64,000 nt of DNA from Basidiobolus meristosporus CBS 931.73 (taxonomy: Eukaryota; Basidiobolomycota; Basidiobolomycetes; Basidiobolales; Basidiobolaceae): NCBI GenBank assembly GCA_002104905.1, contig MCFE01000316.1, positions 33,242 to 97,241 of the forward strand, written 5' to 3'. A program made the translations under genes and the position numbers. Shown here one piece after another: positions 26,253-64,000 of this stretch (the stretch's first letter is position 1; each line of letters opens with the position of its first letter). Under the pieces are notes generated by a model. That model searched no databases, was not told where the DNA came from, and was given only the letters and a program-made list of their open reading frames with translations.

Positions 26253-27767
26253 CTAAGCTTGAATCACTCGCATATTGTTGGTGTTCCCTATACCCTCCTT
26301 GAAGCCCTGGATGACTATTACGGATTGTCCTTTTTGGACGAGGCCGAGCTTTAAACCCTGTTCGATGGCGAAGTCCACCCTGTTATCAACGTCCGATTGC
26401 CACTCTCTAGGGTCGGACTCCTTGACCTGGGGCTTGTCGTAGACAAATGGATAGCAACCAGAATGTAGATGTATTTGGCGCGCCACAGTTGGGCTTCGGG
26501 TGACAGTAATGATTGGACAAACCGGGCGATATTTGGAAATCAACCGAGCGGTGTTGCCGGTCTGTGTCAGCACAATGATGGCACCAGCGTCGGCTTCTAG
26601 CGAGGCATTGACAGCGGATGATGCAACTGTCTCGGTAGTATCAGTTGGTCGTGCAGTCAATGCACGGAGCTCATTGAAGAGTGGTGGATAGCAAATAACC
26701 GATTCAGCTAGCTGGCATGCCTGGGCCATGGTAGTGACCGCCTCGATGGGATAATCGCCCTTGGCAGTCTCACCAGACAACATCACGCAGTCAGCACCAT
26801 CCAGAACGGCATTAGCAACATCACTCACTTCGGCACGCGTGGGCCTTGGGTTATAGGTCATCGACTCGAGCATCTGAGTAGCACATACCACTGGCTTCCC
26901 AGCAAGATTGCACTGCGCAATGATTGATTTTTGAGCGATGAACACTCGCTCACACGGAATTTCAATACCCAAATCACCACGAGCGACCATCACACCATCG
27001 GTTACTTTCAAAATCTCAGCGAAATTATAAACCCCTTGGTAGTTCTCAATCTTCACGATGATCTTGATGTGCTTCCCTTTCTCCCCTAGCACGGCCCTGA
27101 TGTCTTGAACATCCTTGGCGGAACGAATGAAGGAGGCAAATATCATGTCGACGCCTTGCTCAACACCAAACTGTAGATCGGCTTTGTCCTTCTCGGAGAG
27201 TGCAGGTAGATCCACGTCGGTTTTCGGTAAATTAACGCCCTTTCGGCTACATATTTTCCCGTTGTTTAATGCTCTGACTTTGACATCATCGCTGCCAACT
27301 TCAAGCACTTCGAACGAAAGAATACCATCGTCAACATATATAATCTTGCCTTTTTCGATCACTTTCGGTAGGTTCTTATAATCCACGTACATCCTTTCCC
27401 CGTTACACTTCTCCTTGAATTTATCGTCGGTAGTGATAAGCATTTCATGACCAGCGTTGATCGGAGTCTCGACATCGTTCTCACATAGCCCAGTTCGGAT
27501 TTCAGGCCCTTTTGTATCCAGAGCGATGCCGACTGGACTGCTTCCTTTGCTTGCACGAGCATTGGCAATAACTGACCCGTGATACTCATAGGAACCATGG
27601 GAGAAATTCATACGTACGATATTCATGCCAGCTTCCCGAAGCTTGTTCATCATCTCGACGCTGTTGGTTTTCGGGCCAATCGTACAGATTATCGATGTCT
27701 TTCTTTTGGCTTTTGGCTGGACATCGATGTTTAGTCTGGATATCCAAGAAAGACGACTGCTCTCCAT
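26253..27767 (-). CDS. Pyruvate kinase, copy 1
   Basis: Converts phosphoenolpyruvate and ADP to pyruvate and ATP, the last step of glycolysis, in the cytosol. One uninterrupted frame of 504 codons starts at [16 protein letters not shown]. Present are [16 protein letters not shown], the substrate-binding [24 protein letters not shown], the catalytic lysine region [12 protein letters not shown], the metal site [24 protein letters not shown], and the C-terminal regulatory domain with [15 protein letters not shown] and [10 protein letters not shown]. It has no intron, although most neighbours carry several. Copy 2 at 45230-46753 is also intronless. The length matches fungal pyruvate kinases. Confidence 0.97.
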
Positions 27768-45229: not shown

Positions 45230-46753
45230 TCAAGTAATGATCACACGCATGCTGTTGGTGTTGCCAAGCCCTTCCTTGTATCCTTGTACCACCACAACTG
45301 GCTGGCCTATACCAACCAATTTAGCCTTAATTCCTTGCTCAATGGCAAACTCGATACGAGCATCCACATCCTCCAGCCACTCCTTTTCATCAGTACTTGT
45401 CGTGGCTGGCTTTGGATAGAGGAAGGGATAGCAGCCAGAATGCAGATGCGCCTGACGAGCAACATACCCATTACGGGTGACTGTAATGATGGGGCAATGT
45501 GGTCGATATTTGGAGATTAGACGTGCTGTGTTTCCTGAGTGGGTCAACACAATGATGGCACCAGCATCCGCTTCTAACGAGGCGTTAACAGCCGAGGAGG
45601 CGATTGTCTCGGTGATGTCTGTGGGGATTTTTGTGAGCCCACGTAGTTCGTTGAAGATCTGAGGATAGCAGAGGACAGATTCCGCGAGTTGACAAGCTTC
45701 AGCCATTGTCTTAACGGCTTCAACCGGGTACAACCCTTTCGCCGTCTCACCAGAAAGCATAACACAGTCAACCCCGTCGAGGACCGCATTGGCAACGTCA
45801 CTGATCTCAGCACGGGTAGGTCTCGGATTATAGGTCATCGATTCCAACATCTGGGTAGCACATACAACTGACTTGCCAGCCAAGTTGCACTGGGCAATGA
45901 TGGACTTCTGAGCAATGAATACCCGCTCGCAGGGAATCTCAATACCCAAATCGCCACGTGCGATCATTACACCATCCGCCTCTGACAAGATATCTGGGAA
46001 GTTATACACTCCTTGATAGTTCTCGATCTTGGCTATGATTTTAATTTCTTCCGCCGCTTTTCCCAATTCTGCTCTAATTTCTCGTATATCTTGCGCACAG
46101 CGAATGAATGAAGCAAAGATGATGTCGACACCGTGTTCCACACCGAACCGGATGTCAGCCTTATCCTTCTCAGACAGTGCTGGAAGGTCAACGTCAGTTC
46201 TCGGGAGATTGACTCCCTTTCTTGAACGAAGGGTACCATTGTTGAGTGCGCGAACCTCGACCTCGGTATCAAGAACTTCTATCACCTCAAACGAGAGGGC
46301 TCCATCATCGATATAGATGATCTTTCCGCTTTCGATCACCTTCGGGAGGCTTTTATAATCAATATAAAGCCTTTCACCATTGCATCTTTCAGCATACTCG
46401 TCGTCCGTGGTGAAAATCATCTGGTGGCCAGTCTGGATGTCGATGTCTTGGTTGTTTTCCATAATGCCGGTGCGAATTTCTGGGCCTTTGGTATCCAGGG
46501 CAATTCCGATCGGTAATTCTGGGAGAAAGGTCCTTTGACTCTCGCGAGCATTGGCAACAACTGAGCTGTGGTACTCATATGAACCATGAGAGAAATTCAT
46601 ACGAACGATATTTACACCTGCAGCACGAAGCTCGTTTATCTTCTCTACACTGTTTGTACTGGGACCCACAGTACAAACAATCCCGGTCCGTCTTTTAGCG
46701 GTGGGCTCAAGATCAATGTTGAGATCGGAAATCCAGGCAAGTCGAGAGGCCAT
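45230..46753 (-). CDS. Pyruvate kinase, copy 2
   Basis: The frame is open from 46786, but the first ATG is at 46753 (MASRLAWISDLNIDLEPTAK), giving about 507 residues. Same motif series as copy 1: [103 protein letters not shown] and GLGNTNSMRV. It is intronless like copy 1, about 17.5 kb away and on the same strand. The two proteins align end to end with many scattered substitutions, so this is an established paralogue pair, not a recent duplication. Different allosteric tuning is possible; the sequence does not prove it. Confidence 0.97.
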   Translation of the reverse strand: MASRLAWISDLNIDLEPTAKRRTGIVCTVGPSTNSVEKINELRAAGVNIVRMNFSHGSYEYHSSVVANARESQRTFLPELPIGIALDTKGPEIRTGIMENNQDIDIQTGHQMIFTTDDEYAERCNGERLYIDYKSLPKVIESGKIIYIDDGALSFEVIEVLDTEVEVRALNNGTLRSRKGVNLPRTDVDLPALSEKDKADIRFGVEHGVDIIFASFIRCAQDIREIRAELGKAAEEIKIIAKIENYQGVYNFPDILSEADGVMIARGDLGIEIPCERVFIAQKSIIAQCNLAGKSVVCATQMLESMTYNPRPTRAEISDVANAVLDGVDCVMLSGETAKGLYPVEAVKTMAEACQLAESVLCYPQIFNELRGLTKIPTDITETIASSAVNASLEADAGAIIVLTHSGNTARLISKYRPHCPIITVTRNGYVARQAHLHSGCYPFLYPKPATTSTDEKEWLEDVDARIEFAIEQGIKAKLVGIGQPVVVVQGYKEGLGNTNSMRVIIT

Positions 46754-48182
46754 CGAAGCAATGGAACTACTGGATACAATAAACAACCAAGGTTTCCAAT
46801 TGCTCGTCAGCCCTAGGTGCTTTTAAGTATTCCTTGTAGACGATGATTGCGTGTGAGTGTGGCTCGTTACACTTGCCACTTTTGTATATCTAAATATTTC
46901 ACCCCAAGCTAGAGAGTCCGTTCTACATTCGCTGAAGGATCTAGTCAATAGAAGCATAAACACCTATCCATTCGAATTTTGCGAAGCGATCACTCCACTT
47001 CACAGAATACAGGTAGAAATTATTATTTTCACATGTCACATAGAAATCTCTACTGTTTGTTTTGCATTGGCATCACCGGGCAGTGCCCGAAAGATATCTT
47101 CCTTAATCTCGGGCTCCAAATCAAATCAAAGGCTTAGAGCAGCGTAAGGTGGAAACGTTCCCGTATATTTGATTTCCCAGCGCAGTTTGCTTTCACGAGC
47201 CCCAATAGACCTGAATCGATCAAGTTTAACTTCGGCCCGCTTGAGCACATAAACTGGACTATCATTCAGAGGCCTCATGAAGTTCGCACGTGTTGATTGA
47301 AGTCACATTGTACGACACCTTGTACATTGTCCCTGTATACGGCATAGAGACCTTGAGCATTTTTATATGCAAATATGCCAAGTGAGCAGTAGATTGATTA
47401 CCGAACATTCTGGAGCTAGCAGACTAGAAATTTCAAACGTTGGATCCTTGACCGTGGGTATATGCTACAGCATGGTTACCAGGATCTTTCAGCCAATAAT
47501 CGTTTCACAAAAGACGAATCCCCCATTTAGTCCGTGGCTGATTATTGGCCCACCTAACATGCCCACACTTTATAAAAAACCCCTCAGCATGCGGCTCTAT
47601 AACCAGATCAAAAAGCCACCTCACCAATGCTGTATCTACTTCCTTCTGCTTACAGGATTACCCATTGCTGGCCCGTACTGGGGATGTCAAGCGGAAATTT
47701 TACTTGGAAAATTTTTGATTCACTTGCCTCAAGCAAATCAGATTTGGTGACTCTGGACGGGATGGATACTGGGTCTTGAAATAGATGAATTTTGCCGCCA
47801 TTATTCCACTCTTCAAATCCGTGACTCTCTAAAAGGATATTCGCCAGGTCACGTCGCGGATGACGTCATCTCAATTCCAGGAATGGATATGAAATACCCT
47901 AATGCGATATCCACCCAAAGACCCTGGACACTGCGCCAATGGTGGGTAAATTAATCACCTTCACGATTGTTACGATAGGTTGATATGAAGCCTTTTATGT
48001 AGAAAACAATATATGCTTGGGGAGAGTTGAGTGTAGTTGGCTAAAAGCCGTGGGCACTGATGCTCACGCCCAACCATATAGGCTCTGCATTAGGGAGTGA
48101 AAGAATAAGGGAATATGTTGTATGATAGAAGGTGGATGAACAAAAGCATTTGGGATATGTTCATGAGCCCAGACACGGCTAG
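46754..48182. other. Gene-free 1.4 kb
   Basis: The pyruvate kinase 2 promoter on the left and the 3' flank of the secreted protein gene on the right. The 127-codon plus frame at 47367-47750 has no recognisable features. Confidence 0.4.
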
Positions 48183-55911: not shown

Positions 55912-55926
55912 AAGGGGGGAGACAGT

Positions 55927-55950
55927 CACCAACAGGTGAAATCTTTATTT
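55927..55950 (-). other. 3'-terminal hairpin and AATAAA of LINE copy A
   Basis: On the plus strand CACC-AACA-GGTG, followed by AAATCTTTATTT. In element sense this is AAATAAAGATTT followed by a 4-bp stem, 4-base loop hairpin and a C-rich end. Identical to that of copy B at 59171. Confidence 0.8.
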
Positions 55951-55973
55951 CAGTTGAAACAAAGAAGCCAGTG

Positions 55974-57504
55974 CTACTGTTGTAGCTTTGATACAAGAGT
56001 GTGTAGCTGAGGGGAATTTGTAGGTAAGTTAATAAGAAGTGATGATAGTTCTTCAGTGCTCAACATACTGTTCAGTGGGAAGGGGGGTAGCAAGAGAGGT
56101 AAGAATAACTTGTGAACAACATTAATGAGGGGAATGTGATAAGGATTGATATTCATCATAAAGGGAGTGTGCTGCTGCAGATATTGCTGCCAAAGGTCTG
56201 TCAAGTACTTCAGGTAGGCCAGCTTGGGTTTTTCTGACTGCAGAATATAGTGAGCAAACTTCTTGACTTCAGGATCTCCAAGTATAGTTCTCCAGCAGGA
56301 GCCAGGTGTTGTGTAGTGTGTTCTCTTCCAGGCCTTAATCAGTGGGTTGTTGCAGTTGTGAAGTCTGAGGTATAATCTGGTTCTAAGGTAGAGAAGTCTG
56401 ATCTTATAGGGCATAAACCCAAAAGCACCAAGAATAGCATGTCTGTAGGGGCATTCAGGCAAATGAGGCACCAAGGAGGTAATGCACCATACTGCAAACT
56501 TGTCAAGCTTAGTGCAGTCTCTAGAAGTAAGAGAGAGAAGTGGTAAGCCAAATTACAGGACAGGGAAGACAAACTGCTTGAGTAGAAGGAGGCAGCTGGG
56601 AGCTGAAGTTGTAGGAGGAGTAACAGCCAGTAGCTTGTGGAGTGCCTGTCTTGCCAGGATAATTCTCTTCTTCAGGTGTGCTCCAGAGTCTAGTCCAGTA
56701 GGAAGGAAAGGAAAGCCAAGATATGTAGCAGAAACCTGAGCAGGTAGAGTGGAGTTCTCCAAGTTGATGGGAGAGCCCAAAGGTACTGTCTATGCAATGG
56801 AAAGCTGGAGATTATTCTTCTGCAGATACTGGTGGATGGTCTGAGAGTCTTGTTGCACATTGGAGGAGGATATTCTGATGTCATCAGCAAAGAGAGTAAC
56901 CAGGCAGTCAGCTGAGAGTCTTGGGAAGTCATTCAGGAAGATGGCAAACAGTATAGGACCAAGCACAGAGCCTTGAACCACTCCATTAGGTACTGAGAAC
57001 ACAGCTGATTGCTCACTTGGGTGCAGAATACTTGCTTGTGGATCCAGAAACAGAGACCTGACAAGGAGGGTGAGAGAGGTACTGGAGAAGCATTGCAACT
57101 TGGACCAAAGCAGATTTCTGTCAACTGAATCAAAGGCCTTAGTAATATCAAACAGAACAGAGGGATACTTGCACTGGAGAGAGTGATCTTGGCTAAGTAT
57201 GACTGCATATTCCAAGGAGAGGCCAGGAACAAAGCCAAACTGTGCAGGATGAAACTTGAGGGAGTCAGAGTAGAGCTCCTGAGCAAGCAGAAGCTCAAAC
57301 ACCTTTCTGCAGGTGGGCAGCAGAGATATTGGCCTGTAGGAGCTAGGATCCAGGTGCTTTCCTTTACCCTTGTACAGTGGCAGAACATTTGCAAAGGACC
57401 ATTCCTCAGGAGTAGAAAGCTGGGCTGAGCATTGCTGAAACAGTGGAAGCAGAAGTGCAGACATGGCCTTGGTACTAGTCTTCAGAAGCTCATAGGAGAT
57501 TGTG
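55974..57504 (-). pseudogene. ORF2 fragment (reverse transcriptase) of LINE copy A
   Basis: Contains the RT domain from about the SALLLPLFQQCSAQL region onward: SSYRPISLLPTCRKVFE, QFGFVPGLSLEYAV, NGVVQGSVLGPILFAIFLND and TLFADDIRISSSN. It carries a private stop (TAG at about 56790, where the full-length copy reads Lys in SITKTVPLG). It also has the TAA after QFVFPVL that both copies share (56553-56555). The endonuclease part is missing. Not functional. Confidence 0.85.
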
Positions 57505-57722
57505 GGTTAGGGTGTAGGTGTTATAGTAAGGGCTAGGAAAAGGTCAGAAGAGCAGGGGGTCTGGGGGACGCAGTCCCCTAGAGAATAAAAAAGCAGGGGG
57601 TCTGGGGGATGCAATCCCCCATACTGCTCCCATACTCTTTAAATTCCATTGGATTACTTTTCTCTCATTCTTGGTTCTGGTCCTTAGGGTTAGAATTCCT
57701 CCTCCTAACCCTTATCACCCTT
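57505..57722. repeat. Degenerate telomeric tract with duplicated G-rich hairpin unit
   Basis: Starts with GGTTAGGGTG directly after the truncated LINE and ends with CCTTAGGGTTAG (57683-57693), a reverse CTAACCC (57705) and TTAGGG (57721). In between, a unit beginning AGCAGGGGGTCTGGGGGA occurs twice (about 57551 and 57592). Each unit contains a dyad, GGGGAC-GCA-GTCCCC at 57564-57578 and GGGGGAT-GCA-ATCCCCC at 57604-57620. A degraded subtelomeric insert is likely. No coding capacity. Confidence 0.6.
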
Positions 57723-58084
57723 AGGGGAGGAAAGTCACCAAGTGGTGAAATCTTTATTTACTTATGACAAGTATCTAAAGAAGCCAAGTTAATCTAAAGT
57801 TATTCCTAGAAAGCTAGGTCTGAGAGATATCTTCCTGGTAAGCCAGGTCTAAGAGTTGAGAGGCTGAGTGGTACTATATTTCCTAGTTAGCTAGGTCTGA
57901 GAGAGGTTTCCTGGAAAGCCAGGCCTGAGAAGTGAGAATCTGAATATATCTGAGCTAAGTTATACTGGTTTGCGGTAGCTGAATTGTGGCCGGAATGGCC
58001 AGTAGACTGGGGGAACTGAGAGGAATATCTGGGCGATCACTGGCCAAATTTACTAGGCAAATCTGGCCAATTTGCATTTCAAGG
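57723..58084 (-). mobile_element. Short non-coding element with four hairpins and the shared LINE 3' end
   Basis: About 360 bp between TTAGGG tracts at 57721 and 58087. Its left (3') end has the same hairpin (CACC-AAGT-GGTG, 57736-57747) and AAATCTTTATTT as the LINE. It shows no open frame. Downstream lie four short dyads with a common flank: 57805-57818, 57834-57847, 57882-57895 and 57910-57923. A truncated second copy lies at 59069-59159. It behaves like a SINE-type or deletion-derived partner that borrows the LINE's machinery through the common 3' end. Confidence 0.7.
57805..57923. repeat. Four covarying hairpins in the short element
   Basis: CCTAG-AAAG-CTAGG, CCTGG-TAAG-CCAGG, CCTAG-TTAG-CTAGG and CCTGG-AAAG-CCAGG, each followed by a TCTGAGAG-like flank. 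The middle stem pair alternates A-T and G-C with both sides changing together, while loops always end in AG. Confidence 0.75.
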
Positions 58085-58088
58085 ATTT

Positions 58089-59052
58089 AGGGGGGGATGA
58101 TCATCACCAAAGGGTGAAATCTTTATTTAAATAATAAATAAAGAAGCCAAGTTTGAATATGAATATCTGAGATGCAGGAAGCCTACAAGATAAACTTGGA
58201 CTTTGCTGTATCCCAAATATCCTCAATATCAAAGTCTAGAGGAGAGTGTAGCAAGACTGCTTGCTCACTGTAGTATTTCTTGAGGAAATTTGTGACATGA
58301 AGGGAAGGAGAGTTTTTCAACAAGCTGGTAAATCTTTTGAGGAGTTCTTTTTCCAGAGAGAATGGCACAAAGAGTGGAATGTCCAAGTGATGTGCAAATA
58401 TGTGCTCTGAGAGCCCCCAATCCAGCATATTTTTGACTTCTTCTGTAAAATCTTCAACAATATCTTTGTCAAGAATAACTTCCAAGAGATCCCTGGCAAT
58501 GTACTGAATGTTAATAATCTTAGGCATATGAATACCTAGGTCCTTGAGGTAGTTTCTTTGTTCTGATATTGGGAGATACCCTGCATTTCTGAAATAGCAA
58601 ACAGCCCAGTTAGCAGTAGGAGGAGTATCAGGGCTGACAGGGAATCTTCTTCTGGCTTTAGAGTGCACTGGCTTAGGAGACTGTCTTGATGGAAGGGCAG
58701 CTGGTTATGGATGAGCTTGAAGTGCTTGAGAGTAGGTCTGAGTACAAGTAGTAGAAGTTCCTGGTTGCTGAGAATTTTCAGATTGACTGGATGAAGAGCT
58801 AATTGAGGGGTTGCAAGGTAAGGAAGAAGCTGAAAGAGAAGTGGAGAAGGCTGGGTGAAGTTCAGAAAGAGTTTTGAAAAGAATTTGGATCTGAGATTTC
58901 AACATTGAGTTTTCAGCTTCAAGAAGAGAAACTCTTTGTTCAAGGTAAGAAGTCTGTAAAGAGTGAAAGTTGGGTAAAGACATGGAAGTAATAAATAAGA
59001 AGAGTGGAGTAGTTGGGGTGGGAGAGTGGGAAAATTAGCAGGGAGAAGAGAA
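58089..59052 (-). mobile_element. Non-autonomous LINE-type element encoding only an ORF1 relative
   Basis: About 960 bp from the 3' hairpin at 58105-58116 (CACC-AAAG-GGTG, then AAATCTTTATTT) to a short 5' leader ending before AAGGGTTAGGGTTAGGGG at 59051. TTAGGG sequence lies on both sides. It has no endonuclease or reverse transcriptase. The sole coding region matches the C-terminal half of the LINE ORF1 in pattern. This is a probable parasite or partner of the autonomous LINE, comparable in layout to MoTeR2 with MoTeR1 in Magnaporthe. Confidence 0.75.
58183..58983 (-). pseudogene. ORF1-like protein of the non-autonomous element, one in-frame stop
   Basis: The ATG at 58983 opens MSLPNFHSLQTSYLEQRVSL, a coiled-coil segment (EQRVSLLEAENSMLKSQIQI) and a Ser-rich linker. 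A TAA at 58705-58707 interrupts, but the same frame continues to 58183 (about 267 codons in all). After the stop it reads PPTANWAVCYFRNAGYLPIS and LLEVILDKDIVEDF, ending with DIEDIWDTAKSKFIL. These blocks parallel PPASTWTVVYLKQVPWTPIS, ILEVILDQNIADPF and FEELWDSAG of the LINE ORF1, an RRM-like RNA-binding region. The zinc ribbon of the LINE ORF1 is absent. The single stop may be a recent mutation or be read through. Confidence 0.65.
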
Positions 59053-59068
59053 GGGTTAGGGTTAGGGG
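59053..59068. repeat. Telomeric TTAGGG tract (two units)
   Basis: GGGTTAGGGTTAGGGG lies between the 5' end of the ORF1-only element and the 3' end of the next element fragment. It is oriented with the G-rich strand running to the right. Confidence 0.85.
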
Positions 59069-59159
59069 AGGAAAGTCACCAAGTGGTGAAATCTTTATTT
59101 ACTTATGACAAGTATCTAAAGAAGCCAAGTTAATCTGAAGTAATTCCTAGAAAGCTAGG
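59069..59159 (-). mobile_element. Truncated second copy of the short hairpin element
   Basis: Matches 57727-57818 almost base for base: the same 3' hairpin (CACC-AAGT-GGTG at 59077-59088), ACTTATGACAAGTATC and ATTCCTAGAAAGCTAGG. It ends right at the first internal hairpin, where the 3' end of LINE copy B begins with GGGGAGACAGTCACC. Confidence 0.8.
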
Positions 59160-59170
59160 GGGGAGACAGT

Positions 59171-59194
59171 CACCAACAGGTGAAATCTTTATTT
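59171..59194 (-). other. 3'-terminal hairpin and AATAAA of LINE copy B
   Basis: Plus-strand CACC-AACA-GGTG then AAATCTTTATTT. In element sense, AATAAA precedes the hairpin, which is followed by a C-rich terminus. The same layout occurs at 55927, 57736, 58105, 59077 and 63818. Confidence 0.8.
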
Positions 59195-59217
59195 CAGTTG
59201 AAACAAAGAAGCCAGCG

Positions 59218-61986
59218 CTACTGTTGTAGCTTTGATACAAGAATGTGTAGCTGAGGGGAATTTGTAGGTAAGTTAATAAGAAGTGATGATAGTTCTTCAG
59301 TGCTCAAGACACTGTTCAGTGGGAAGGGGGGTAGCAAGAGAGGTAAGAATGACTTGTGAACAACATTAATGAGGGGAATGTGATAAGGATTGATATTCAT
59401 CATAAAGGGAGTGTGCTGCTGCAGATATTGCTGCCAAAGGTCTGTCAAGTACTTCAGGTAGGCCAGCTTGGGTTTTTCTGACTGCAGAATATAGTGAGCA
59501 AACTTCTTGACTTCAGGATCTCCAAGTATTGTTCTCCAGCAGGAGTCAGGTGTTGTGTGGTGTGTTCTCTTCCAGGCCTTAATCAGTGGGTTGTTGCAGT
59601 TGTGAAGTCTGAGGTATAATCTGGTTCTAAGGTAGAGAAGTCTGATCTTATAGGGCATAAACCCAAAAGCACCAAGAATAGCATGTCTGTAGGGGCATTC
59701 AGGCAAATGAGGCACCAAGGAGGTAATGCACCATACTGCAAACTTGTCAAGCTTAGTGCAGTCTCTAGAAGTAAGAGAGAGAAGTGGTAAGCCAAATTAC
59801 AGGACAGGGAAGACAAACTGCTTGAGTAGAAGGAGGCAGCTGGGAGCTGAAGTTGTAGGAGGAGTAACAGCCAGTAGCTTGTGGAGTGCCTGTCTTGCCA
59901 GGATAATTCTCTTCTTCAGGTGTGCTCCAGAGTCTAGTCCAGTAGGAAGGAAAGGAAAGCCAAGATATGTAGCAGAAACCTGAGCAGGTAGAGTGGAGTT
60001 CTCCAAGTTGATAGGAGAGCCCAAAGGTACTGTCTTTGTAATGGAAAGCTGGAGATTATTCTTCTGCAGATACTGGTTGATGGTCTGGGAGTCTTGTTGC
60101 ACATTGGAGGAGGATATTCTGATGTCATCAGCAAAGAGAGTAACCAGGCAGTCAGCTGAGAGTCTTGGGAAATCATTCAGGAAGATGGCAAACAGTATAG
60201 GACCAAGCACAGAACCTTGAACCACTCCATTAGGAACTGAGAACACAGCTGATTGCTCACTTGGGTGCAGAATTCTTGCTTGTGGATCCAGAAACAGAGA
60301 CCTGACAAGGAGGGTGAGAGAGGTACTGGAGAAGCATTGCAACTTGGACCAAAGCAGATTTCTGTCAACTGAATCAAAGGCCTTAGTAATATCAAACAGA
60401 ACAGAGGGATACTTGCACTGGAGAGCGTGATCTTGGCTAAGTATGACTGCATATTCCAAGGAGAGGCCAGGAACAAAGCCAAACTGTGCAGGATGAAATT
60501 TGAGGGAGTCAGAGTAGAGCTCCTGAGCAAGCAGAAGCTCAAACACCTTTCTGCAGGTGGGCAGCAGAGATATTGGCCTGTAGGAGCTAGGATCCAGGTG
60601 CTTTCCTTTACCCTTGTACAGTGGCAGAACATTTGCAAAGGACCATTCCTCAGGAGTAGAAAGCTGGGCTGAGCATTGCTGAAACAGTGGAAGCAGAAGT
60701 GCAGACATGGCCTTGGTACTAGTCTTCAGAAGCTCATAAGAGATTGTGTCCACACCTGGAGCAGTAGAGTTGGGAAGCCTCTTGAGCACATTATGGATTC
60801 TCCTTTGATCAAGTGCAAGTGGGATGGGCAGAGTCTTGAAGTCAGGATGAAAGCCAGGAGTTGAGTACTGCTTTGTAGAGAAGAAGATGTTAGCCAGCTG
60901 TTCTGTTGAAGGTAACTTCCTGGAAGAGGGCCTCATTGCCCTGTAGAGTCTTGATACTGTTCTTGTGATAGAGTTGGAAGATTGCAGAGGCAAGGAACTC
61001 ATAATATGATCCCAGAGCTGAGTATGCAGAGTGTGGTGAATTGCCTTGGAGTGGTGTATTGCTGTCAGGAGGAGTTTCTCTGTTTTTGGGTTAGGGAAAC
61101 TCAGGTAGCTTTGTTGCAGGGCTGAAACAATGGATTCCCATTTTCTTGAGGTAACAGCAGTAGTCTTGCATGGCAGTGAGAGGGAGGCAGACACCAGAAT
61201 CAGATGCTTCACAAAGAGCCAGGCATAGTTGAGATCATCTGGCAGAGAAAGTAGCAAACTGGCAAGCTTCAAGTAGTTCCCAAAGTCTTTCTTCTGATTC
61301 TTGGTTGCTTTGTGGGTGAGCACAGTAAGTTTTGGCAGCTTCTTCTTCACAACTGGTTGCATAGAAAGGGACCAGGCTGGATGGTCAGAGGCTCTCAAGG
61401 ATCCTAGCTCAGCTCCAGAGAATTGCTTAACTTCATTCACAAAGTAGAGGGCAGCAGCAGAAGGGCAGATCCAGTCAACACATCTTTTCTCAGATTGAGC
61501 ACCTAGTGCTAGCAGGTGGCTTTCTCTCAGGAAGTTCAGTAGGAATGTAGACCTTGGCTTCATTCTTGCAGTCAGAGTAGTCTTGTTCTCAGGATGGGGA
61601 ATGTTGAGATCTCCAAGCAAGATAACAGGTGTTGATATAGATTGTTGGTATTGCTGAACCTTCTGGCATATAACTTGCACTTCTTGAAGGGCAAGACTTG
61701 GAGGCAGATAGCAGAGCACCAGACTGATAGTTGGCAACTGGAGAGCAGCACAGTAAGGGGAGTAAAGAGGAACACAGAGCTGAGGAGTATTGATGGTAGA
61801 AGAGATGAAGCAGATAGAGGAGGTATTCTTTGTTCTAGGAGTAGAAAAGCAATATAGATTAGTCAAAAGTATAGAGGGTAGCTGGACATCAATCAAACAC
61901 AGGAGGGAAAATCTTGAAAGAAGTCTTTCTAGAGTTGGTCTTGATGGCTGTATGCTGTTGCAGTTAAGCAACAGAACTTCAGGTAG
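59218..61986 (-). CDS. LINE ORF2: endonuclease plus reverse transcriptase, one in-frame TAA
   Basis: The frame runs directly on from the ORF1 stop codon. No ATG occurs before the endonuclease, which starts at once with VLLLNCNSIQ. Counting from the TTG at 61971, the endonuclease motifs are GDLNIPH (about 120) and ASDHPAW (about 194-200). The RT follows: SYRPISLLPTCRKVFE, GFVPGLSLEYAV, LFDITKAFDSVDRN, NGVVQGSVLGPILF and the catalytic FADD (about 613). A TAA at 59797-59799 follows QFVFPVL, yet the same frame stays open for 193 more codons (LDKFAVWCITSLVPHLPEC and on) to the stop at 59218. The TAA is also in copy A. ORF2 is probably made by readthrough from ORF1. Whether the tail after the TAA is translated is unknown. 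Confidence 0.85.
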
Positions 61987-61992
61987 TCAGGC
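61981..61992 (-). promoter_or_regulatory. Probable stop-codon readthrough site between ORF1 and ORF2
   Basis: In element sense the sequence is GCC TGA CTA CCT, with ORF1 before it and ORF2 after it in the same frame. UGA followed by CUA is a known high-readthrough context in viral and cellular mRNAs. ORF2 has no ATG of its own before the endonuclease domain, so readthrough is the simplest way to make it. Confidence 0.6.
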
Positions 61993-63495
61993 AGAGGTTG
62001 TAGCTTCTTCAGAGGCAGCATTGATAATGTGACCTGCAGAGTCCCAGAGCTCTTCAAATGGTGCATCACTTAAGTCAGCAAGGAGGGAAATGGCATGATT
62101 CTTGAGGAAGTATGCCACATCATAGGAGGGGGCTTGTCTCTTGATGGCAGCAAAGAAAGACAGAATGGCAACATGGGCTGGAGGCTTGTTGAACAGTAGA
62201 GAGTCAGAGGATTCAGATTCTTCAGGCACTATCTTGAAGTCAGTTTTCAGCCAGTTAAGGTTCTTCTCCACAAAGGTAACAAATGGGTCAGCAATGTTTT
62301 GGTCTAGGATAACCTCCAGAATCTTCCCTTTTCTCCAGGCCAGGTTGACAATTCTTGAGAGCTGAATATTGCATGCCTTGAGTGCTTTCCTGATGTTGGA
62401 AATGGGAGTCCAGGGAACTTGCTTCAAGTACACCACAGTCCAGGTAGAAGCTGGTGGTAGGTTTGCTGGGGGCTTGTAAGTCCTTCTGTGTTGCAATGGA
62501 GCTGCAGTAGTCAGATTGGAGTCCACATTCTCAGTAGAAGGTTTTCTTGATGTGTCTTGCTGAATAGTACTGGAGCTGGATGTGCTGATAATTCTTGCTA
62601 GAACCTTGCCTGCATAAGTCTGAGGTATAGCTGAGGTGACTGTAGAGGTGGTGGCAGCTGGTGCAGGTGGAGAGGCAGAGACTAAAGCAGGAACTGAGGT
62701 CACCTGGGAGAAGGCAGTGGAAGCAGGTTTTCTGGGAGGAACAGAGTTCACTATCCAGTTGTTCTGTAAAACACTGGAGTAGCTTTTCTGTGGAACAGGA
62801 TCTTGCTCTTGAACAGGAACAGAAGCAGGAGGCTGGGGCTGAGCAGTAGTGGTAAGGCAGTGGCACTCCAAGGAAGCTTTTTGCAAGGCATCTCTGGCAG
62901 TTTTCAGGGCAGTATTGGCTTCATTCTTGAGCTTCTTGCATTGGGCATCCAGTCTCTTGTTTTCAATTGCCAGGGCAGTATTGGCAGCCTCTAAATCAGC
63001 AATTCTCTTCTCAATTGCAAGGAATCTCTGAAGAAATGCATCAGTAGAAGTGCTGGCATCTGGGAGAGCAGTGGCAGGAATAGACTCCATTGACAGTGGG
63101 CTTCTTGGAGGCAAGGAAAGTGGACTGGCAGATTCAGGCACAAAAGGAGATATCCTGGCAGGAGGAGAAGGAGTATCCAAGGCAGTAACAGAGGCAATTC
63201 TTGTTGGTGAAGCAGCAGCAGGGGAGGCAAGCCTGTTCAGAAACTGGGCAGGAGAGAGTGCTTGAGGAGAGGGAGTCTTCAGCTTGCCAAGCATGTCTTC
63301 CATCAGAGTGATACCAATATTCCTGGTGCATTTGCAGAGAAAAGTAAGCTTCCTGAGTCTGCCAGCTCTTCCATTCCTTCTGATAGTTCCTTTGTTTCCA
63401 CAGTTGGGGCAAGAAATCTTCTTGACAGACTTGTCAAAGCAATCAAGAACCTTCCTTTCAGGTGTAGTGGGCTCCTGTTGAGGTTTTGGTGGCAT
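61987..63495 (-). CDS. LINE ORF1: zinc ribbon, coiled coil and RRM-like RNA-binding protein
   Basis: The frame is open from 63522, but the first ATG is at 63495 (MPPKPQQEPTTPERK), giving 502 residues. A zinc ribbon-like site, Cys29-X2-Cys32-X21-Cys54-X-Cys56 with a basic GTIRRNGRAGRLRK loop, replaces the CCHC knuckles usual in LINE ORF1. After a Ser/Pro/Ala-rich stretch comes a coiled coil (LAIEKRIADLEAANTALAIE). A Pro/Ser linker and an RRM-like domain follow (STWTVVYLKQVPW, KGKILEVILDQNIADPF), then a C-terminal region with YFLKNHAIS and FEELWDSAG. It should bind element RNA. The stop TGA at 61987-61989 is followed by CTA and the ORF2 frame. Confidence 0.85.
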   Translation of the reverse strand: MPPKPQQEPTTPERKVLDCFDKSVKKISCPNCGNKGTIRRNGRAGRLRKLTFLCKCTRNIGITLMEDMLGKLKTPSPQALSPAQFLNRLASPAAASPTRIASVTALDTPSPPARISPFVPESASPLSLPPRSPLSMESIPATALPDASTSTDAFLQRFLAIEKRIADLEAANTALAIENKRLDAQCKKLKNEANTALKTARDALQKASLECHCLTTTAQPQPPASVPVQEQDPVPQKSYSSVLQNNWIVNSVPPRKPASTAFSQVTSVPALVSASPPAPAATTSTVTSAIPQTYAGKVLARIISTSSSSTIQQDTSRKPSTENVDSNLTTAAPLQHRRTYKPPANLPPASTWTVVYLKQVPWTPISNIRKALKACNIQLSRIVNLAWRKGKILEVILDQNIADPFVTFVEKNLNWLKTDFKIVPEESESSDSLLFNKPPAHVAILSFFAAIKRQAPSYDVAYFLKNHAISLLADLSDAPFEELWDSAGHIINAASEEATTSA

Positions 63496-63564
63496 ATCCA
63501 GAGTTTCAGCTTCAAATTTCAATTTTTGAGATTTTTGGGTGATTTTTGATGGGCGGGATCAAAA

Positions 63565-63578
63565 TTAGGGTTAGGGTT
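63565..63578. repeat. Telomeric TTAGGG tract (two units) at the LINE 5' end
   Basis: AAAATTAGGGTTAGGGTT directly abuts the 5' end of full-length LINE copy B. Orientation matches a chromosome end to the right. Confidence 0.85.
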
Positions 63579-63620
63579 GCGCGCTGTGACTGCTTTTTAC
63601 GATCGCAAGGTCAGAACCTA
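63579..63620. other. Short CpG-containing unique spacer
   Basis: GCGCGCTGTGAC and ACGATCGC make this the only CpG-dense patch in the array. Nothing else is recognisable. Confidence 0.4.
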
Positions 63621-63782
63621 GGAAAAAATAAAAATAGTTAGTAAAGGTGATTTAATGGATGGATGGATGGATTCGGAGTCAGATTCAATCAAAAAATCAA
63701 ATCGTTGACTAATTTAAAGAGGAAAAAATAAAAATAGTTAGTAAAGGTGATTTAATGGATGGATGGGAAAAAATAAAAATAG
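63621..63782. repeat. Subtelomeric tandem repeat of about 45 bp, three partial units
   Basis: GGAAAAAATAAAAATAGTTAG begins units at 63621, 63721 and 63766. The first two continue TAAAGGTGATTTAATGGATG and then GGATGG runs. A unique insert of about 45 bases lies after unit 1. In unit 3, TAGTTAG runs directly into GGTTAGGG telomere repeats. Confidence 0.75.
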
Positions 63783-63806
63783 TTAGGGTTAGGGTTAGGG
63801 TTAGGG
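63783..63806. repeat. Telomeric TTAGGG tract (four perfect units)
   Basis: Four perfect TTAGGG units, the longest tract in the window, followed at once by GGAGGGAAAGTCACC, the 3' end of the next element. Confidence 0.9.
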
Positions 63807-64000
63807 GGAGGGAAAGTCACCAAGGTAGGTGAAATCTTTATTTGAATGCAGACAAGTCTAACTACAAATAAAGAAGCCAGCTGGGAATAGAAGATTCCCA
63901 AAGTAAACACTAAGTTGAATATGAATAAATCTAAGCTAAAGTTAAGGCAGTATCCCAGAGTACACTGGAGTTCAGGTTCATGGGGGAGTGAAGTAGATAA
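63807..64000 (-). mobile_element. Start (3' end) of another ORF1-encoding element, cut by the window edge
   Basis: Has the shared 3' hairpin with a longer loop (CACC-AAGGTA-GGTG at 63818-63831), then AAATCTTTATTT. From about 64000 to 63935 the minus strand reads LLHSPMNLNSSVLWDTALTL and a stop. This parallels LLHSPLDFDIEDIWDTAKSK at the end of the ORF1-only element at 58183. It is therefore a related but distinct element continuing to the right. Confidence 0.75.

Follow-up and report, generated by a model that had tools for sequence, protein, structure and literature searches.

Terminal arrays of non-LTR retroelements with a shared 3' module at chromosome ends of Basidiobolus meristosporus

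Telomere-attached retroelements are known from few lineages. In fungi, parts of the literature cited here describe telomeric LINEs of the CRE type with a REL endonuclease, and MoTeR and FoTeR were placed with CRE/SLACS (PMC12857005; PMC7367193). MoTeR2 carries the 3' end of MoTeR1, with repeats near the 5' end (PMC7367193; PMC12857005), and sections of the work on MoTeR report that 5' truncations are healed at seeds of 1-7 nt and that stable interstitial tracts reach at most (TTAGGG)2, since longer ones break (PMC7367193). Like MoTeR1/MoTeR2 of Magnaporthe and FoTeR of Fusarium, the fungal array described in this study is telomeric, has its 5' ends outward and contains short interstitial telomere tracts.

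In Drosophila, the arrays of HeT-A, TART and TAHRE are polar, their junctions are oligo(A), and HeT-A is gag-only. TRAS and SART are of the APE type and insert into long repeat tracts guided by their endonuclease, and Athena, GilM/GilT and Zepp possess reverse transcriptase families other than the LINE reverse transcriptase found here. According to parts of the cited papers, features shared with the present array are terminal arrays with the 3' end inward (HeT-A/TART/TAHRE) and a non-autonomous partner that uses, or here would use, another element's machinery (HeT-A; PMC4700185), as well as LINEs located in telomeric repeats (TRAS/SART of Bombyx and Tribolium) and telomere association (Athena Penelope-like elements, GilM/GilT and Zepp; PMC10088271). 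Athena-type elements are described as endonuclease-deficient in an entry of the reference list of PMC10088271; in contrast to Athena, GilM/GilT and Zepp, the array in B. meristosporus encodes a LINE reverse transcriptase with an APE-like region.

The array in the window and its element families

The window is a stretch of 64,000 nucleotides (C554:33242-97241) from an assembly of 89.0 Mb in 1,311 contigs, and on the right it stops where its contig of 97,241 bp ends. The genus Basidiobolus (Basidiobolomycota) is associated with the amphibian gut. We identified six antisense element 3' ends (hairpins from 55926, 57735, 58104, 59076, 59170 and 63817) in a single orientation, each with the motif TCACC-loop-GGTGAAATCTTTATTT and, on its left, a G-run continuing a full or partial TTAGGG. 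This confirms the six minus-sense copies proposed in an earlier sequence-only reading of the window. (TTAGGG)2 gave five matches (three of them overlapping within one tract) against 0.01 expected from shuffles. The array is organized as follows:

55914-57503, minus strand: element A (autonomous LINE), 5'-truncated; hairpin at 55926, RVT_1 in 56790-57464; the left 3' end adjoins only AAGGG
57504-57512, plus strand: short telomeric tract GGGTTAGGG
57513-57719, minus strand (by analogy only): family F repeat without the shared hairpins; same end after TTAGG in five other loci
57721-57726, plus strand: TTAGGG junction
57727-58085, minus strand: element B (SINE-like), 5'-truncated; hairpin at 57735; full-length B is ~0.53 kb elsewhere
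58090-59054, minus strand: element C (gag-only); recurrent 5' end GAGAAGG, open frame of 161 aa (58183-58668)
59056-59067, plus strand: (TTAGGG)2 junction
59068-59153, minus strand: element B cut to ~90 nt; hairpin at 59076
59158-63782, minus strand: element A, full-length copy; ORF2 59218-61971, ORF1 61987-63522, repeated stretches 63620-63766
61987-63522, minus strand: ORF1 of A, 511 aa; its C-terminal part is related to the gag-only proteins
63565-63576, plus strand: (TTAGGG)2 within the 5' region of A, not a junction; recurs in 5/5 distinct A copies
63783-63806, plus strand: (TTAGGG)4 junction
63807-64000, minus strand: element D (gag-only), incomplete because the contig ends here; hairpin at 63817

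The same reading had placed TTAGGG tracts at the joins and the elements at or near them, which holds for most; however, the tract at 63565-63576 lies inside element A, the 3' ends at 55926 and 59170 are preceded by AAGGG... and TAGGG..., respectively, without a full TTAGGG, and 57513-57719 is a further repeat. Its count of at least three element types was an understatement, as five families share one 3' module and family F is additional. Family F, a repeat of more than 200 bp starting with GTGTAGGTGTTATAGTAAGG, lacks the shared 3' hairpins and follows TTAGG in 6/6 places (window 57513-57719, L014, L029, L120, L132 and L141). Elsewhere in the window, two pyruvate kinase paralogues (26253-27767 and 45230-46786, minus strand) lie ~17 kb apart and are 74% identical; the nearest named relative of one of them is found in Basidiobolus ranarum (91%).

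The five families are the autonomous LINE A, the gag-only elements C and D, the partial relative E and the SINE-like B. Their common 3' module, GGCTTCTTT...AAATAAAGATTTCACC-loop-GGTGA, has folding z-scores of -3.2 (A), -1.7 (B), -3.0 (C), -3.2 (D) and -2.4 (E). Element A (4.6 kb) encodes an ORF1 of 511 aa and an ORF2 of 917-922 aa; the latter contains RVT_1 (E 1e-25) together with a weakly matched APE-like region. In the window, the full-length copy has a stop codon within ORF2, in frame at 59797-59799, and the truncated A has the same codon there. Genome-wide, the open frame reaches 911 aa or more in 53 of the 62 reverse transcriptase copies, an in-frame TAA being present in two of the 53, and ORF2 is 98.9-99.6% identical in the three copy pairs compared. 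Elements C and D (1.0-1.4 kb) each have a single main ORF, which encodes 266 or 242 aa, and element E was found as partial copies only, up to ~0.9 kb. Similarity links the D protein to the C-terminal part of A ORF1 (BLASTP E 4e-22), so that A and D, which also share the 3' module, correspond to the combination of an autonomous LINE and a gag-only partner in HeT-A/TART/TAHRE. A long N-terminal helix is predicted for the D protein, which may tentatively be assigned an RRM-like fold; a relative in B. ranarum shows 50% identity across 67% of it.

Among solved structures, the reverse transcriptase of A is nearest to LINE-1 ORF2p (E 2e-21), with R2 at 4e-8. Two weak matches bear the names X-element and jockey, and five related proteins show 49-85% identity. 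APE-like Pfam matches were detected N-terminal to the reverse transcriptase in four of the six family proteins scanned (best E 3e-6), with scores below the curated cut-off in both scanned proteins of this genome; among the remaining sequences, the region is missing in P0004 and partial in P0003. In ORF2, most motifs of the APE-like region that we take to be catalytic are kept. The usual residue at one position of APE endonucleases is Glu, and Asp replaces it in all three sequences covering that position. Thus, by APE profile and solved-structure matches, A differs from the REL-encoding MoTeR and FoTeR.

Element B (0.53 kb) apparently has no long ORF: in the L033 copy, sense ATG ORFs reach at most 40 aa and an antisense one has 55 aa. 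Box A and box B are the consensus motifs of internal pol III promoters. We found 13 heads, two of which are not B; a box A with one mismatch and a box B are present in 8 of the 11 B heads, and the pattern occurs in 20 of 20,000 simulated sequences. When two heads were searched for a parent RNA, the tRNA family of Rfam gave no match at E<=10. With putative internal pol III boxes near its 5' end, no apparent protein and a 3' tail shared with a LINE, B thus appears SINE-like. Between box A and box B, 10 of the 11 heads (L013, L028, L033, L095 and others) contain CCCTAACCC, so that B cDNA would itself include a telomere-like stretch close to its 5' end.

Location and polarity at chromosome ends

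Matches to the shared 3'-end hairpin pattern number 1,626 genome-wide (1,492 forward, 134 reverse; control 0), and TTAGGGG immediately precedes a hairpin at 1,286 places. Polarity was scored on informative contigs, i.e., those long enough to distinguish their two ends. The first 100 hairpin places listed, in 27 contigs, all lie no more than 22.2 kb from the contig end on their 5' side; 37 of these 100, in 11 contigs of 100 kb or longer, are informative, and 37/37 are oriented 5'-outward within 25 kb of the end. Reverse transcriptase copies were taken from 62 scored matches, each spanning the 724-aa query; 54 are on contigs of at least 40 kb, and in 53 of these the 5' side is less than 25 kb and the 3' side more than 25 kb from the contig ends. 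For the ends of D and A, where the searches score the best candidates only, the best 40 copies (for D including that of the window) yielded in each case 30 with a locus and 25 informative ones, of which 25/25 and 23/25 agree, respectively; the hairpin, reverse transcriptase, D-end and A-end sets share contigs. On C846 (195,199 bp) and C591 (205,623 bp), elements are found at either end as mirror images of each other, and element matches on C424 and C536 switch strand in the same way from low to high coordinates. As a control, a copia LTR motif was unbiased (915 forward vs 990 reverse), and on the same 11 long contigs only 11/46 copia sites, vs 37/37 hairpins, lie within 25 kb of the array end.

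Array-side contig ends are reached by 21 of the loci examined, 13 of which finish in TTAGGG repeats, whereas eight, including the contig of the window, stop within the array. The window had been read as an array facing a chromosome end; its own contig stops inside an element before a telomere is reached, and support comes from other contigs on which the same type of array reaches the telomere. Terminal TTAGGG tracts are 168-271 nt long in 12 loci measured (11 reach the contig end and L033 is 12 bases short of it); a thirteenth value, 45, derives from a locus ending before its contig end. A TERT gene is present, as indicated by two neighbouring matches to the TERT RNA-binding domain above the cut-off. 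In contrast to Drosophila, which is without telomerase, these elements therefore do not appear to replace telomerase in B. meristosporus.

Two exceptions were found. On C726, a stretch at ~56-61 kb is inverted ahead of a canonical array that reaches the telomere, and may reflect the rearrangement or capture of an end, or else a mis-join; in this stretch (L095, L096), copia pol is fused directly to an element. C558 (218 kb) carries an array of usual anatomy at 98 kb, which represents an old fused end or a contig mis-join. This internal array (L127, C558:96342-99464) has normal TTAGGG junctions and a copia-like LTR stretch inside element A. With these two exceptions, the expectation of terminal, TTAGGG-flanked copies of one polarity across the genome was largely borne out. 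Assembly-wide, (TTAGGG)4 occurs 7,428 times forward and 81 times reverse, i.e., contigs are apparently mostly telomere-right, which is probably a habit of the assembler. The terminal retroelement array is real and general in the B. meristosporus genome, far beyond the window.

Junctions and 5' ends

We found 139 distinct 3' junctions and parsed 135, at loci picked by similarity or place, which are thus no random sample. In 111 of the parsed junctions, the telomeric run (up to and including GGG) comprises at least 6 nt, in 22 it has 4-5 nt and in two 3 nt; the 24 junctions with only 3-5 telomeric nt indicate that a full repeat is not required. The elements are separated by short tracts (median 9 nt, maximum 28), of which 97/135 have 6-12 nt, in contrast to the 3-7 TAACCC described at FoTeR 3' ends in part of PMC12857005. 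They also differ from the long tracts of TRAS/SART, as all 135 junctions have 3-28 nt, and they are G-rich, not oligo(A) as in HeT-A/TART/TAHRE. (TTAGGG)3 directly precedes an element at only 60 places genome-wide. Uniform insertion into a telomere of 168-271 nt was computed to make tracts this short in all 135 junctions essentially impossible. However, the same pattern would result if long tracts were selectively lost, which is what was reported for MoTeR, so that short tracts alone are no proof of attachment to a free end. The length of the G-run varies by family (6-7 in 37/49 A, 4-7 in 30/33 B and 4 in 35/50 D/E), which would fit pairing of a C-rich RNA end with the primer GGG in several registers.

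At the opposite side, the B end GTGTTCTTGG followed by TTAGGG has 183 matches in the genome, and GAGAAGG is the 5' end common to C and D, in D beyond a variable number of ~101-bp repeats. Ten of the 31 B copies of measurable length have 527-533 nt, 19 are shorter and two longer. The left side was examined at 146 junctions, of which 80 could be placed on reference copies and 66 could not; 15 of the 80 are at the reference 5' end and 65 elsewhere. Before exclusions, 42/65 non-reference 5' ends share at least 2 in-frame nt with the telomere repeat. After inspection, 16 of the 65 were removed by hand (15 at repeat-unit ends, which are really full-length 5' ends, and one self-match), leaving in-frame seeds of at least 2 nt at 27/49 truncated 5' ends vs 20% under the null (P 7e-8). 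This bias resembles the seed use at 17/23 reported for MoTeR. TTAGGG-like stretches occur near the 5' ends of A, B, C and D copies and could seed a telomerase cap. Repeats of ~100 bp were observed in the 5' regions of D (L002 2440-2947) and A (window 63620-63766) and are possible promoter units.

Attachment to chromosome ends: a model and its alternatives

On balance, we lean towards a mechanism in which reverse transcription starts at the RNA 3' ends and extends the 3' ends of the G-strand, with telomerase adding the cap afterwards; such priming and subsequent capping are likely. A consortium of non-LTR retroelements would live on the chromosome ends, with element A supplying the reverse transcriptase. 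The RNAs of A, C, D, perhaps E, and B would present the common 3' module, two hairpins and a C-rich end. This C-rich RNA 3' end would anneal to the 3' G's of a natural, worn or broken chromosome end and be copied; the cDNA would thus continue the G-rich strand, with the element 5' end outward. Synthesis might stop early, or the end might break later. Telomerase would then add TTAGGG, preferably at in-frame seed nt, and the next element would attach to that short telomerase-made tract. We infer that the RNA anneals to a free 3' end, which then serves as the primer, that the A enzyme is used in trans and that the events follow this order. Capping by telomerase, already suggested by the sequence-only reading, is supported by the terminal TTAGGG tracts, the TERT gene and the in-frame seeds at truncated ends; that reading as a whole is partly supported. 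More tentatively, the elements might form a complete community specific to telomeres, in which one LINE enzyme serves gag-only elements as well as a SINE-like RNA made by pol III, all of them docking through the common 3' module. Small non-coding RNAs would then be mobile templates that extend or heal chromosome 3' ends before capping.

A possible, if rather unlikely, alternative is site-specific target-primed insertion, in which an endonuclease nicks a telomeric tract; distal shortening or loss of the tract and a new cap would follow. Nick-primed insertion was proposed for TRAS/SART and also, through a different enzyme, for MoTeR, and a working nickase in ORF2 would make a free chromosome end unnecessary. 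The APE-like matches in four of six proteins fit this explanation, as do the 1,286 TTAGGGG-joined places for 1,626 hairpins, and, as part of PMC7367193 explains short MoTeR tracts by breakage of long ones, the tracts seen today may be survivors and not the original target. Nevertheless, 24/135 junctions lack a full repeat, which leaves a mixed picture for cleavage at a fixed place in the repeats as in TRAS/SART, Glu is changed to Asp in the endonuclease region, and (TTAGGG)3 precedes elements at only 60 places in spite of terminal tracts of 168-271 nt.

It is improbable that the elements spread mostly by recombination (break-induced replication, gene conversion between ends or loop-primed tandem copying) of a few old insertions, with retrotransposition now rare. 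Recombination is described for MoTeR arrays in part of PMC7367193, and the near-identity of ORF2 in three pairs and the inverted stretch on C726, which is a rearrangement or mis-assembly, would agree with it. However, junction lengths, G-run lengths and truncation points vary among copies, the 5' ends of B, C/D and A recur as those of transcripts would, and 53/62 reverse transcriptase copies retain the long frame, two of them with an in-frame TAA. Finally, an assembly artefact, whereby contigs break in repeats and any repeat looks terminal, is very unlikely: the fragmentation into 1,311 contigs, the (TTAGGG)4 orientation bias and the 8/21 array-side ends inside the array would suit it, but it would give both polarities where 53/54 and 37/37 run one way, 13/21 ends finish in TTAGGG repeats distal to elements, and copia LTRs are dispersed and unbiased.

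The lifestyle of the elements is already known, and their lineage, endonuclease class and set of passengers appear new. Titles and abstract openings of open-access papers announced no telomere-attached elements in Basidiobolus or early-diverging fungi, and the word telomere is absent from the main text of PMC10386755, which does not establish priority. B. meristosporus would represent a separate, APE-LINE-type origin of the telomeric lifestyle in an early-diverging fungus that kept telomerase, with gag-only and SINE-like passengers. Its ~1,600 3' ends with readable junctions are a resource on how a reverse transcriptase uses the chromosome end as a primer, and they also bear on retroelements and telomerase sharing one substrate.
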